A DNA stretch of 64,000 nt from the NCBI GenBank assembly GCA_030429625.1, contig JAUIFA010000001.1, positions 285,306 to 349,305 of the forward strand, given 5' to 3'. The first letter of the stretch is position 1. Every line of letters begins with the position of its first letter. A model generated the notes under the pieces. It worked only from the letters and a program-made list of their open reading frames with translations, did no database searches and was not told the origin of the DNA. Made by a program: the position numbers and the translations under genes. Source of the stretch: Alphaproteobacteria bacterium (GTDB lineage: Bacteria; Pseudomonadota; Alphaproteobacteria; Rickettsiales; UBA8987). Below, in pieces: positions 21,402 to 51,927 of the stretch.

Positions 21402-22187
21402 ATGAAAAGAAATTCAGGCTTTACACTGGTAGAACTCTCTATTGTTTTGGTTATTATTAGTTTGATTACTGGAGCAATTGTCTCTGGTAGAGAAATGATC
21501 CACACGGCGCGCTTGAACAGTGTGATGGTAGATTTTAATAAATACCAAACCGCCTATAATACTTTCTCCGCCAAATATGATGCCTTGCCGGGGGATTTTG
21601 ATGAAGCGTCGGATTATTGGCCGGGGGAATCCTATGATGGGGATGGGAACGGTTATATTTGTACATTTGCGGGTGATGTGTCTACATGGAATGAGGCTGT
21701 AAACTTTTTTAATCATCTTTATCAAGCAGGGATGATAGAGGGCTATTACAAAAGATGGACAGGTGCGTTTCTGCCTGCTGATAAAGACAATCTTATTCCA
21801 AGTAAGCAAATTGGTCGCTCTGCCTTTTACCCGTGGTGCGCTGGGCTGAAAGTGCTTTTCTTTACGGGGGCAAGCCACGGTTTATATACTGCCGCAGATG
21901 GCAATTATATGGTGTTTGGTTATGATTGGGTTAATGGCGCAAATTTTGTTGATAACCCACTTGCCCCCTCTGAGGCAAAAATGATTGATAAAAAAATGGA
22001 TGATGGTAAGCCGGGCACCGGGAAAATGGTGGTGTCGGGTAGCCCTATTCCGGCTTCGGCTTCAGGCAATTGTGCTTCCAGCCACTTGATTGGGGACATT
22101 GACACGGCCACGTATAACGTAGATGATAGTTTAGAGGATCTAATAGGTAACCCCATTAAATGCCGTCTTGGTATGGCATTGGATTAA
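21402..22187 (+). CDS. Type II/IV prepilin-like protein A
   Basis: 261 residues. Class III signal 'SGFTLVELSIVLVIISLI': prepilin peptidase cleaves after Gly6 and methylates Phe7; Glu11 is the +5 glutamate. After the helix: 'SGREMIHTARLNSV', 'KYDALPGDFDEASDYWP', a Ca-binding-like DGDGNG loop, 'KMIDKKMDDGKPGTGK', and a C-terminal two-cysteine segment. Four paralogues exist in this window. It is 3 bases from the next prepilin gene. No assembly ATPase, secretin or peptidase gene is nearby. Confidence 0.93.
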   Translation: MKRNSGFTLVELSIVLVIISLITGAIVSGREMIHTARLNSVMVDFNKYQTAYNTFSAKYDALPGDFDEASDYWPGESYDGDGNGYICTFAGDVSTWNEAVNFFNHLYQAGMIEGYYKRWTGAFLPADKDNLIPSKQIGRSAFYPWCAGLKVLFFTGASHGLYTAADGNYMVFGYDWVNGANFVDNPLAPSEAKMIDKKMDDGKPGTGKMVVSGSPIPASASGNCASSHLIGDIDTATYNVDDSLEDLIGNPIKCRLGMALD

Positions 22188-22190
22188 TAT

Positions 22191-22886
22191 ATGAAAAAAG
22201 CATCAGGTTTTACATTGGTAGAGCTTTCTATTGTTTTAGTAATTATTAGCCTTATTACTGGAGGGATTGTTTCCGGTAGGGAAATGATCCATACCGCTCG
22301 TTTAAACAGCGTGATGAACGATTATATTAAATACGAAACCGCCAACAACATGTTTCAAGCCAAATACGATGCCTTGCCGGGGGATTTTGATGAAGCGTCG
22401 GATTATTGGCCTTCGGACAGTTATAACGGAAATGGCGATGGGCTGGTGTATGGCGGGACAGAAAGAACCCTGTTTTTTAACCAACTGGCATTGGCAGGTT
22501 TTATTGAAGGAACCTATGATAGGACAAAGCAATTGGCTGTGATAGGAACAAGTCGTCCGGAAATGGCTCTTAAAGGTGTGGTGCCTACGGTTTTTAGTAG
22601 TGAGGCGCGGTATGAATTCACCAACACGGTGGTGGCAGGCTGGGCGTACGAGTTGTTGCTGTACAGCACGTATGAGGATTACGATGCCTATATTATGACC
22701 CCGGCAGATGCCAAGATGATTGATAAAAAAATGGACGACAGCATGCCTGGTACGGGAAAAGTGGTTGGTTATGGTAAACCTGGTCAAGCCTGTGCCGATA
22801 GCCATGCTTTGGGTGATATGTTAACCGCTGTTTACGATGTGGGTTCCAGCTCCAAAGCTTGTTCTCCCCTATACCATATGGATTAG
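22191..22886 (+). CDS. Type II/IV prepilin-like protein B
   Basis: 231 residues. The signal 'SGFTLVELSIVLVIISLI' is identical to that of the preceding gene, and 'KYDALPGDFDEASDYWP', an NGNGDG loop, 'KMIDKKMDDSMPGTGK' and a C-terminal Cys-x(n)-Cys are shared. The middle differs, so the pair arose by tandem duplication followed by divergence of the surface domain. Its stop overlaps the end of the convergent EI24 gene by 4 bases. Confidence 0.93.
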   Translation: MKKASGFTLVELSIVLVIISLITGGIVSGREMIHTARLNSVMNDYIKYETANNMFQAKYDALPGDFDEASDYWPSDSYNGNGDGLVYGGTERTLFFNQLALAGFIEGTYDRTKQLAVIGTSRPEMALKGVVPTVFSSEARYEFTNTVVAGWAYELLLYSTYEDYDAYIMTPADAKMIDKKMDDSMPGTGKVVGYGKPGQACADSHALGDMLTAVYDVGSSSKACSPLYHMD

Positions 22887-27699: not shown

Positions 27700-27708
27700 T
27701 GCTATAAT
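27700..27708 (+). promoter_or_regulatory. Extended -10 promoter of lipoprotein array
   Basis: TGCTATAAT (TGn plus TATAAT) 34 bases before the first lipoprotein ATG, after a 126-base gap from thiL. No clear -35. It may serve all five downstream genes, which are spaced 0-20 bases apart or overlap. Confidence 0.5.
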
Positions 27709-27741: not shown

Positions 27742-28068
27742 ATGAAAGCCATAATGGTTACATCCTTTGCTCTGTTTGTTACCAGTTGTAGCTATATGCA
27801 GCAGGATTATTTTAAAAGTAAAGGCCGGCATAGCTATTTTTCCGGTCAGCCATTATTTATGGCTAATTTGCCTCAGGGGGATGACAGTTACAGTCAGGGT
27901 GTCCGTGATGGTTGTAACACCGCTGTTGGGCAAATCGGTTCGGGCTATCTACGTTCGTTTGGGATGGCGTATGATCCCAATCGTGGTCTGGAAGATCAGG
28001 ATTATTATATGGGATACCGTATTGGGAACAACTACTGTACCTATTATCTTGATCCTGATCCTCTATAA
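27742..28068 (+). CDS. Array lipoprotein 1 (GW.DGC...YC family)
   Basis: 108 residues. Lipoprotein signal with Cys16 (VTSC). Mature part: 'YSQGVRDGCNTAVGQIGSGY', a variable middle, 'DYYMGYRIGNNYC'. It is the most divergent of five tandem paralogues, and the only one with 'GYRIGNNYC' where the others have 'AWKDAF.YC'. The two mature cysteines are conserved. Function unknown; no named domain recognised. Confidence 0.82.
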   Translation: MKAIMVTSFALFVTSCSYMQQDYFKSKGRHSYFSGQPLFMANLPQGDDSYSQGVRDGCNTAVGQIGSGYLRSFGMAYDPNRGLEDQDYYMGYRIGNNYCTYYLDPDPL

Positions 28069-28083
28069 AAGTGGGTGTATAAA

Positions 28084-28413
28084 ATGAAATATATTGTAAA
28101 CATATCTATTGTTTTTGTTCTTATTTTTAGTCTTTCCGCGTGTACGGGTAGAGATGGTGCGTTTGATTTACGCAAGCCATATTCTTTGGATTTAACCCCA
28201 CCAGAAGGCCCATACGAATATGAAGAGGGCTGGAGCGATGGTTGTGAGAGTGGGATGAGTGCCTATGCTGGTGCATTTTATAAGCTTATCGGCTCTTTTG
28301 AATTACGGATGAAGCCAGATCTGCGTAGCAATAAAATGTACTATCAGGCATGGAAAGATGCTTTTCTTTATTGTGCCACTTATTGGGAGGCAGTGAATAA
28401 TGATAAAATCTAA
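28084..28413 (+). CDS. Array lipoprotein 2
   Basis: 109 residues from the ATG at 28084 (an in-frame GTG nine bases upstream lacks support). Lipobox LSAC, Cys20. Shared core: 'YEEGWSDGCESGMSAYAGAF', then 'MYYQAWKDAFLYC'. The end overlaps the next gene's start by 14 bases. Confidence 0.85.
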   Translation: MKYIVNISIVFVLIFSLSACTGRDGAFDLRKPYSLDLTPPEGPYEYEEGWSDGCESGMSAYAGAFYKLIGSFELRMKPDLRSNKMYYQAWKDAFLYCATYWEAVNNDKI

Positions 28414-28723
28414 AAAATTATTCATGCTGATATGTATTTTGTTGCTGAGCTCAACGGGATGTACCGCAGGGCCTCCTTGGCAACAATGGATGTTTGAGGG
28501 GCCTCCTCCGGGCAGGGAATATCACCCGCTATATGTTGATGGCTGGGTTGACGGTTGTGAATCGGGAACCTCTGCCACGGCGAACCCTTGGTATAAAATG
28601 CAGTATAAGTTCCGTCAGGATCCTATAAAGGCGCAAAATAAGGTATATTATAAGGGGTGGAAGGATGCATTTAACTACTGCAACCGTTACATCTACCAAT
28701 ATAAAAGAAGAAGTACATTCTAA
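28400..28723 (+). CDS. Array lipoprotein 3
   Basis: 107 residues; ATG inside the previous gene with GGGAGG upstream. Lipobox STGC, Cys21. Core: 'YVDGWVDGCESGTSATANPW', 'KFRQDP', 'VYYKGWKDAFNYC'. Basic tail. Both mature cysteines present. Confidence 0.85.
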   Translation: MIKSKKLFMLICILLLSSTGCTAGPPWQQWMFEGPPPGREYHPLYVDGWVDGCESGTSATANPWYKMQYKFRQDPIKAQNKVYYKGWKDAFNYCNRYIYQYKRRSTF

Positions 28724-28741
28724 GGAGTTTTTTGCAAGAAG

Positions 28742-29053
28742 ATGCGTGGTTTATTTATAATCATTTGTATGTTATTATTAGTCAGCGGGTGCAGCGTGGT
28801 GGATCGTATCGTAACGCCTAAGCCTTGGGGCTTAGGGGATACGCCAGAAGGCTCTGAAATCTTCCAGAAAGGTTGGAATGATGGTTGTAATAGCGGACTG
28901 CATGTTTACGGTACGGCAAGATATCGTGCAGCGTATGATTATTATCAAGACCCTGAACTTCTGGAAAATCAGGAATATTATCGTGCTTGGAAAGATGCGT
29001 GGACCTATTGCCGTTGGTATGCGTGGAACTGGGTGCGGCCGTTTAGTAAATAG
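28742..29053 (+). CDS. Array lipoprotein 4
   Basis: 103 residues; AAGGAG upstream of the ATG. Lipobox VSGC, Cys17. Core: 'FQKGWNDGCNSGLHVYGTAR', 'YYQDPELLENQEYYRAWKDA', then WTYC. Closest in layout to members 3 and 5. Confidence 0.85.
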   Translation: MRGLFIIICMLLLVSGCSVVDRIVTPKPWGLGDTPEGSEIFQKGWNDGCNSGLHVYGTARYRAAYDYYQDPELLENQEYYRAWKDAWTYCRWYAWNWVRPFSK

Positions 29054-29062
29054 GTGGAGAGT

Positions 29063-29617
29063 ATGAAAACAATAAAACAGACATTGATGGTGATGACGCT
29101 TTTGGTGCTGTGTGGCTGTAATCCCTTTGGTGGTGTGGCCTTTACTGGCACACCAGAATGGACATACATGCCGGGAGATGAATATCCTGAGGAATATAAA
29201 TTGGGTTGGAAACATGGGTTGGAAAGTGGTCTTTCGGTCTATGGTAATACGCTCTATAAAGCGTCGTATAGTTATCGTCAGGACATAGACATGATGAAAA
29301 ATGCCACCTACTCTAAAGCGTGGGTAGATGCGTTTAACTATGGTCGTGCCATTTCTAACAAATCACTAGTTGAGGGTATGTGGTGGAGTGAAGGCTTTAA
29401 ACCCAATTCTGCGTATAACCCTCTTGGTTCTGGTGACACGCGTGATCCCAAAACGGTGCACGAAGATTTGGGGCTAGAATTTTCGATCTTTCAGGGGTTA
29501 AATACGCCTGGATGGGGTGAGCACACTTGGCACGATACGGATGAAGTAGGCGATTGGCTGGGTCGTTCCGATAGTGAATCGAGAGACTGGTTAGGTCGTA
29601 CGCCTGCATATCAGTAA
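29063..29617 (+). CDS. Array lipoprotein 5, cysteine-less and extended
   Basis: 184 residues from the ATG at 29063 (GGAGAG upstream; an in-frame GTG nine bases earlier overlaps that site). Lipobox LCGC, Cys19. Same core, 'YKLGWKHGLESGLSVYGNTL', 'SYRQDIDMMKNATYSKAWVD', then AFNYG: both otherwise invariant mature cysteines are replaced (GC to GL, YC to YG). A unique tail of about 80 residues contains DWLGR twice. Convergent with hslU, 3 bases apart. Confidence 0.85.
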   Translation: MKTIKQTLMVMTLLVLCGCNPFGGVAFTGTPEWTYMPGDEYPEEYKLGWKHGLESGLSVYGNTLYKASYSYRQDIDMMKNATYSKAWVDAFNYGRAISNKSLVEGMWWSEGFKPNSAYNPLGSGDTRDPKTVHEDLGLEFSIFQGLNTPGWGEHTWHDTDEVGDWLGRSDSESRDWLGRTPAYQ

Positions 29618-47152: not shown

Positions 47153-47851
47153 ATGAATAAAAAATCTGGATTCACGCTTATTGAACTTTCTATTGTTCTG
47201 GTGATTATTAGCCTGATTGCTGCTGGGGTTGTCTCAGGTAGAGAGATGATTCATACATCTCGATTATCGGCATTGGCAAGTGATTATCTAAAATACCAAA
47301 CAGCATTTAATATGTTTGAGTTAAAATACGACCAAGTGCCAGGCGATTTTAATGAGGCAACTTCTTATTGGCCTGGTGTTTCACGTAATGGTAATAATGA
47401 TGGTACGTATAGTAATTCACTGGAGAGAACGAGCTTTTTTGATCATTTGGCTCATGCCGGTTTGACAGAAGGAATTTATGATCATACAGAATCAAGTATA
47501 ATAATTGGTACAAGCCGTCCTGCGTCCCCATTTGATGGTATAGCAATTGATATGGAATATTTATCTGCTATATATTATTTTACTGGTGATGCAGCAGCAG
47601 CGGACTACCCTGCCGATATTATTTTAACACTACGTTATAATAATAGTGGTAGTCGAGACACGTTGACTCCTGAAGATACTAAATTCATTGATAAGAAATT
47701 AGATAACGGTTTGCCCGGCAGCGGTAAATTAATTGGTTATAGTTCATCAGACACATGTGCTAATAACCATAGTTTGGCGACGTTGGCAACAGATACGTAT
47801 GATGTTTCTGTGACAACCAAAGTATGCTCTCCATGGTTTATACTAGGCTAA
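47153..47851 (+). CDS. Type II/IV prepilin-like protein C
   Basis: 232 residues. Signal 'SGFTLIELSIVLVIISLI' with Gly6/Phe7/Glu11, then 'SGREMIHTSRLSAL', 'KYDQVPGDFNEATSYWP', an NGNNDG loop, 'KFIDKKLDNGLPGSGK' and the C-terminal 'C...H' plus 'YDV....KVC' segment shared with protein B. Has its own promoter. The coding sequence is more AT-rich than the pair at 21402-22886. Confidence 0.93.
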   Translation: MNKKSGFTLIELSIVLVIISLIAAGVVSGREMIHTSRLSALASDYLKYQTAFNMFELKYDQVPGDFNEATSYWPGVSRNGNNDGTYSNSLERTSFFDHLAHAGLTEGIYDHTESSIIIGTSRPASPFDGIAIDMEYLSAIYYFTGDAAAADYPADIILTLRYNNSGSRDTLTPEDTKFIDKKLDNGLPGSGKLIGYSSSDTCANNHSLATLATDTYDVSVTTKVCSPWFILG

Positions 47852-50830: not shown

Positions 50831-51262
50831 ATGCTTATTATTGCGGTGGCTTTATTAGCGTTCATAGTACTAGCTATACCAAAACTACGTTGTGGTTGGT
50901 ATATAATACATGGCCTGATATTGCTAGTGGTTTCTTACTATTTTGCCAATAAATATGGTTACATGCAAGTGAGCTTTAAAGCATTCTTCTATCTGCTAAT
51001 CATTCATTTTATTTCTATTAATTTTGTAACTTTTCTAGCATATGCTTACGATAAGGCAGCATCCATTGAAGGCAAATGGCGCGTTCCAGAAAAAATACTG
51101 CATGCGCTGGCTTTAATCGGAGGCACACCGCTGGCCATTCTTTCACGTAAAATAATGCGCCATAAAACCAAAAAAGACAGTTTCGTCCGTGACATGTGGA
51201 AGGTAATATTCTTACAGATTATATTGCTGGTTGTTGTCGCGTATATGGCAATATTACTTTAA
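50831..51262 (+). CDS. DUF1294 membrane protein
   Basis: 143 residues, four membrane segments. 'AYAYDKAASIEGKWRVPEKI' and 'LHALALIGGTPLA' followed by 'RKIMRHKTKKDSF' are the DUF1294 signature. Function unknown. Its stop overlaps the end of the convergent prepilin gene by 4 bases. Confidence 0.88.
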   Translation: MLIIAVALLAFIVLAIPKLRCGWYIIHGLILLVVSYYFANKYGYMQVSFKAFFYLLIIHFISINFVTFLAYAYDKAASIEGKWRVPEKILHALALIGGTPLAILSRKIMRHKTKKDSFVRDMWKVIFLQIILLVVVAYMAILL

Positions 51263-51927
51263 TCGATGTAATATATTGTAAGACACTGCTTGCCTTCAAC
51301 TTTTAAGTCATAGCCGATGTCAATGGTACCATCGATACATCCGCCAGGTGTATCAGAACCATCCACCGAAATTACACCACCAGTATCGGCAATCCCATCA
51401 TCAAGCTTGTTGTCAATCAATACCGCATCTTCGGTACTGAAAACGGCCTTGTCTACCGACGTGCCATTGTCTGTAGAAAGATACACATAGTTACCACTGC
51501 TGTCATAACCAAAACGAAACCCATTGCCGGCAATTTTTGATTCAGGAATATTGACTCCAATTTGGTAGGAGCTTTCATCACCGTTAAATGTACCAGTGAT
51601 AATCCCTGCCAGAGAGAGGTGTTGCCATGCGCGGATGTCTTCATTAACGCCTTCATCATATTCAATGGTGCGGTCACCATCACCATTGTCGGTATTGTCA
51701 TTAGGCCAATAAGATGTGGCGTTGGTAAAGTCTCCTGGCAAGGCATCGTATTTGAGTTCAAAGGTACGTACCGACGTTTTGTAATTGCTGTAATCGGTAA
51801 CCACCATTGTGGCCTTGGCATTATCCAACACACCCATTAATATAGAGATTCCAGCGAAGAATGCTCCAATTATAACGATCACTACTGACATCTCTATTAA
51901 GGTAAAGCCATTTTCAGATTTTTTCAT
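51259..51927 (-). CDS. Type II/IV prepilin-like protein D
   Basis: 222 residues, the most divergent of the four. Signal 'NGFTLIEMSVVIVIIGAFF' (Gly7/Phe8/Glu12), 'KYDALPGDFTNATSYWP', a DNGDGD loop, 'VLIDNKLDDGIADTGG' and a C-terminal cysteine pair (GGCIDG...KQC). It lacks the 'SGREMIHT' segment of the others. Confidence 0.92.
   Translation of the reverse strand: MKKSENGFTLIEMSVVIVIIGAFFAGISILMGVLDNAKATMVVTDYSNYKTSVRTFELKYDALPGDFTNATSYWPNDNTDNGDGDRTIEYDEGVNEDIRAWQHLSLAGIITGTFNGDESSYQIGVNIPESKIAGNGFRFGYDSSGNYVYLSTDNGTSVDKAVFSTEDAVLIDNKLDDGIADTGGVISVDGSDTPGGCIDGTIDIGYDLKVEGKQCLTIYYID

Follow-up and report, generated by a model that had tools for sequence, protein, structure and literature searches.

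A conserved five-gene lipoprotein cassette and its single-gene relatives in Rickettsiales

Does a row of five related lipoprotein genes hold interchangeable variants of one protein or the separate parts of one system? The question is raised by a 64,000-nucleotide stretch of a Rickettsiales genome (the window), in which ORF reading and alignment placed five co-directional plus-strand ORFs at positions 27742-29617. All five encode lipoproteins with a common core, which in the alignment of the five reads GW.DGC.SG ... YY.AWKDAF.YC. The genes, with their position subtypes (P1 to P5), and a putative promoter element are as follows.

Five lipoprotein genes and their promoter region

27700..27708, plus strand: extended -10 element TGCTATAAT, putative cassette promoter (consensus match only), 34 nt 5' of gene 1
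27742..28068, plus strand: gene 1 (P1 subtype), 108-aa lipoprotein, Cys16, core SYSQGVRDGC..YYMGYRIGNNYCTYYLDPDPL
28084..28413, plus strand: gene 2 (P2 subtype), 109-aa lipoprotein from ATG 28084 (112 aa from GTG 28075)
28400..28723, plus strand: gene 3 (P3 subtype), 107-aa lipoprotein, 14-nt overlap with gene 2
28742..29053, plus strand: gene 4 (P4 subtype), 103-aa lipoprotein
29063..29617, plus strand: gene 5 (P5 subtype), 184-aa lipoprotein from ATG 29063 (187 aa from GTG 29054)

A lipobox cysteine follows the hydrophobic N-terminus in 5/5 window proteins, and four residues are invariant in their alignment (G53, G57, Y88, and Y98 in gene 1 numbering). The core motif is clear in genes 2 to 4, looser in gene 1, and cysteine-free in gene 5, which carries a C-terminal extension of approximately 85 aa rich in G, W, and P. 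Using gene 4 alone as a query against its own genome, the other four window genes were recovered with E values of 2e-7 to 5e-17; thus, their likeness is not due to chance. The intergenic gaps of 15, -14, 18, and 9 nt (taking the ATG starts for genes 2 and 5) are operon-like, a spacing which suggests that the five genes would be carried on one transcript. From translations, the genes upstream of the cassette were read as ribBA, ribH, nusB, and thiL, and those downstream on the opposite strand as hslU and hslV, followed by his genes.

A Pfam scan of the five window proteins returned no match at E<=10, an NCBIfam scan none near cut-off, a PHROGs scan no family at cut-off, and PDB sequence searches no meaningful match; the cassette was also unreported in the open-access literature searched. 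The family is therefore undescribed. The original prediction, made from the DNA alone, of five consecutive lipoprotein genes with a shared core was confirmed by the ORFs, lipoboxes, alignment, and gene 4 search, and its statements that the signature belongs to no named family and that the genes form one operon agree with the Pfam and NCBIfam scans and the gaps, respectively. Its extended -10 promoter stood in part, as the consensus is present at 27700-27708 but no promoter was listed there by a -35/-10 (sigma-70) scan.

Gene number, gene order, and distribution of the family

Exactly five genes were present in 21/21 cassettes included in a tree, drawn from around a dozen families within the order, and six further loci beyond these have five genes each (counts exclude the divergent loci L190 and L191 of family f15, where not all five genes were recognised). 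Departures were few: cassette G029a has a permuted gene order and a single cassette, G029b, has three genes only; the genome with the most sets carries three, among them a three-gene set. The tree, with 21 rows in each of groups P1 to P5 and one row per cassette, grouped genes by position and not by genome, requiring 22 label changes compared with 88.6 in shuffles; its alignment was short, and it contains many unresolved forks. P5 was the least coherent group (nine label changes). P3 was the most conserved of the five positions. Across the core in a set of eight genomes, orthologues at one position shared 45 to 61% identity, compared with 32% for paralogues within an array. The cassette is under purifying selection, as dN/dS was approximately 0.05-0.14 where dS was unsaturated. 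Together, the conserved number and order, the position-wise tree, the identities, and the low dN/dS form the pattern of fixed, non-interchangeable parts.

Between most families the surroundings of the cassette differ, with thiL a direct cassette neighbour in f1, f8, f11, and f22. For the family as a whole, thiL, rpoD, and NAD kinase (identities as read) recur as neighbours in four families each, which looks like inherited gene order. The gene 4 search also located a second five-gene row in the window's genome (G000), on the other strand at approximately C5:181548-183153 (L039 5432-7196). In the tree, this second cassette represents a different ancient subtype and is related to sequences of G021, G029, G036, and G052.

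A profile built from the five window proteins, a check that the original prediction had proposed, identified the family in 37/55 genomes of the order Rickettsiales; in a larger sample, 97/263 genomes of the order carried it. Two states dominate among the order's genomes, a single gene or sets of five, with one solo gene found in the sister families of cassette bearers. Beyond the order, 25 sampled genomes of the class Alphaproteobacteria contained distant relatives, mostly as single genes, and a profile of these relatives aligned with both the solo profile (E 5e-23) and the cassette profile (E 1e-13). Many "hypothetical" alphaproteobacterial lipoproteins are now grouped into one family.

Several further arrangements were observed. 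In G060, two solo copies lie in tandem (L170 8000-8707), a possible early duplication step, and in another alphaproteobacterial family, f142, separate tandem copies occur in varying number (G375 and G642; L131 4696-6849, L128 1350-2988). Distant solo relatives (L139, L140, L141, L142, and L144) adjoin, mostly divergently, a protein family that corresponds to DUF2336 in L142, and this arrangement is repeated in four families. A family relative is also present on two near-identical contigs from a viral collection (L068 5446-5733, L069 4173-4460), their viral nature being taken from the collection label.

Two described families showed partial likeness. Lipoproteins of DUF2799 (PF10973) carry similar text, Y..G..DG ... 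Y..G..(D/E)G..YC, and a two-sequence DUF2799 profile matched the distant alphaproteobacterial relatives with a probability of 80%, partly via the signal peptide. The match to the cassette profile, however, had a probability of 0.2%, and DUF2799 matched no window protein at E<=10 (below gathering score) and nothing in the window's genome. Homology to DUF2799 was not established. Similarly, NF049856 (Alvin_2107, NCBIfam) gave a short motif match in 7/10 distant relatives, but the best score of 24.6 bits fell below the cut-off of 60 bits and the five window proteins gave no match.

Gene fusion, core cysteines, and predicted fold

In family f28 (G037, G053, and G063), genes 2 and 3 are a single two-domain protein (L030 1333-2010, L023 2274-2978, and L183 662-1342), so that the cassette again comprises five domains. 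Both core cysteines are present in 131/134 cores, with window gene 5 the sole protein lacking both. An AlphaFold2 model of the mature gene 4 protein, computed with its relatives (78 rows), was a confident helical hairpin (pLDDT 87.9, pTM 0.77) with helices at residues 23-40, 43-48, and 61-82. In the model, the two near-invariant core cysteines (residues 33 and 74 of the mature protein) lie one in each long helix, which makes a disulfide between them plausible. The fused protein was modeled as two similar hairpins (pLDDT 72, pTM 0.71), in which the relative placement of the domains is untrustworthy because the first domain rested on three sequences.

Fold searches with these two models, the structural follow-up suggested at the outset, found no convincing known relative. 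Among solved structures, the gene 4 model came closest to ribosome modulation factor (PDB 2jrm), also a small helical hairpin, at a weak Z of 4.0, an rmsd of 3.8 over 56 residues, and a Foldseek E of 3.8, a match that may merely reflect a common arrangement. Ribosome modulation factor is cytosolic and ribosome binding, whereas the members of the present family carry lipoprotein signal peptides.

Pilus and secretion neighbours and competing explanations

At five independent sites, the direct neighbours of the family include core genes of a type IV pilus or type II secretion system:

f17, three genomes: family beside pilC-pilMN-pilO-pilP
G005, of the window's own family: family beside pilP-O-MN
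G110: family beside a pilC fragment
G149: family beside pilT
G506, an outgroup outside the order: family member is the first gene of a gsp operon

The assignments pilMN, pilO, and pilP were made from gene order and appearance, since neither Pfam nor NCBIfam produced a usable match for these genes. Pilus or secretion genes also lie approximately four to eight genes away in f19 and f28, while most family loci have no such neighbour. Taking 15 such genes among 1,900 as a rough guide, approximately 0.7 adjacencies would be expected compared with the five seen; the Poisson p is approximately 8e-4, uncorrected for the fact that the category was chosen post hoc. An internal control using genes at least five steps away revealed no gradient (7/183 versus 13/429, p = 0.39). 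Four large type IV pilin-like proteins are encoded in the window itself (21402-22187, 22191-22886, 47153-47851 (+), and 51259-51927 (-)), with text including GFTLVELSIVLVIISL... and KYDALPGDF.... Pilin-like matches number 21 in the window's genome and 5-41 per related genome and, being this common, pilin neighbours were dropped as evidence for a pilus link.

Across the 55 genomes, the family and PilC co-occurred strongly (35 with both, 2 with the family only, 4 with PilC only, 14 with neither; p = 7e-8), and far more so than the family and flagellar FliG (p = 0.008). Flagella were excluded as the driver of the PilC link since it persists among genomes without flagella. An unrelated biosynthetic gene, hisB, matched or surpassed PilC (32 with both, 5 with the family only, 0 with hisB only, 18 with neither), indicating that the PilC profile reflects clade membership, and the phylogenetic profile was dropped as pilus evidence. 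What the profile contains is nothing pilus specific: metabolically rich lineages generally carry the family, and reduced ones lack it. As all 32 hisB-bearing genomes carry it, the family marks metabolically rich, putatively free-living Rickettsiales, and its function in the envelope is a candidate for loss during the shift to host association. Basal Rickettsiales with larger genomes, possibly free-living, have been described (PMC9352585, PMC10847448).

An apparent N-terminal lipobox was found in most secretins examined (e.g., L213, L252, L253, L255, L257, L261, and L263), including two of the window's genome (L252 8508-10247 and L213 3795-5369). Judged by their sequences, such secretins may reach the outer membrane unaided (self-piloting). 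Since they bear an apparent lipobox of their own, a classical pilotin is not obviously needed, and the cassette was not classed as one. Pilotins (GspS/OutS, AspS, and PilF/PilW) resemble the window proteins in being small lipoproteins with a lipobox, tied to secretion or pilus machines of the kind whose genes the family adjoins in some genomes, and the window proteins would share their outer-membrane location; however, there are five paralogues here in place of one, no pilotin family model matched, and no known pilotin structure was among the few Foldseek/VIA matches. Secretins of the L252 type are flanked on one side by a prepilin peptidase and on the other by two conserved but uncharacterised proteins. 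The idea of a secretin-less pilus was ruled out by the presence of secretins in nearly all PilC-bearing genomes, and pairing the second cassette with a second PilC type gave no consistent pattern.

Small outer-membrane lipoproteins are the usual helpers of secretins (PMC3276575 and PMC6532946, for example). Together with the five direct adjacencies and the nearby genes in f19 and f28, this lends some appeal to the cassette being a dedicated accessory of the secretin in a type IV pilus or type II secretion system, either pilotin-like or a clamp around the outer-membrane channel, but the apparent lipoboxes of the secretins themselves and the confounding of co-occurrence by clade leave that explanation somewhat doubtful. 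That the five products act independently in the envelope, for example in cell-wall or outer-membrane homeostasis, and share an operon by descent with no joint complex would suit the mostly housekeeping neighbours. We consider it unlikely, as number and order are kept although the cassette occupies different genomic places, whole cassettes have apparently been duplicated as units (the two ancient subtypes in the window's genome), and genes 2 and 3 are fused in one family.

The original prediction had taken the tandem expansion to imply variety, as in surface interaction. A diversifying array of surface lipoproteins, through which contact with hosts, phages, or neighbours would be varied, could draw on the within-array paralogues, which differ at approximately 68% of core sites, and on the variable, lineage-specific tandem copies of f142. 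Number, order, the position-wise tree, the identities, and dN/dS, for which comparison between copies had been proposed, all oppose this proposal, and copy number hardly varies among cassettes, making it very improbable. Tandem paralogy is frequent among immunity lipoproteins, and one outgroup member weakly matched entry-exclusion protein TrbK (NCBIfam, E 0.13, far below cut-off); immunity or entry exclusion against toxins or conjugation is nonetheless barely credible, given conservation by position across the whole order and neighbours among which toxin or conjugation genes do not recur.

The explanation that we favour, at roughly even chances, is that the five genes make up one functional cassette, a lipoprotein assembly of five subunits that all descend from one lipoprotein. 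The ancestor, a single envelope lipoprotein of Alphaproteobacteria, would have been duplicated to five copies, each then fixed as a position-specific subunit. After export, each protein would be lipidated at the cysteine of its lipobox and directed to the outer membrane, on the periplasmic side, and its core would fold into a helical hairpin that a disulfide between the two conserved cysteines probably holds in place. One copy of each of the five subunits (1:1:1:1:1) would join into a single hetero-oligomer, to which the gene 5 extension could dock a partner. The likeliest client would be an outer-membrane machine for type IV pili or type II secretion, although such a role is a lead that is possible at best. 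The full account, in which an outer-membrane hetero-pentamer arose from a homomeric solo-gene ancestor, served the pilus or secretion of free-living Rickettsiales, and was lost with life inside hosts, is unlikely to hold in every part. The solo gene in sister families and the ordered five-part cassette elsewhere represent a probable homomer-to-heteromer transition for which intermediates are available.
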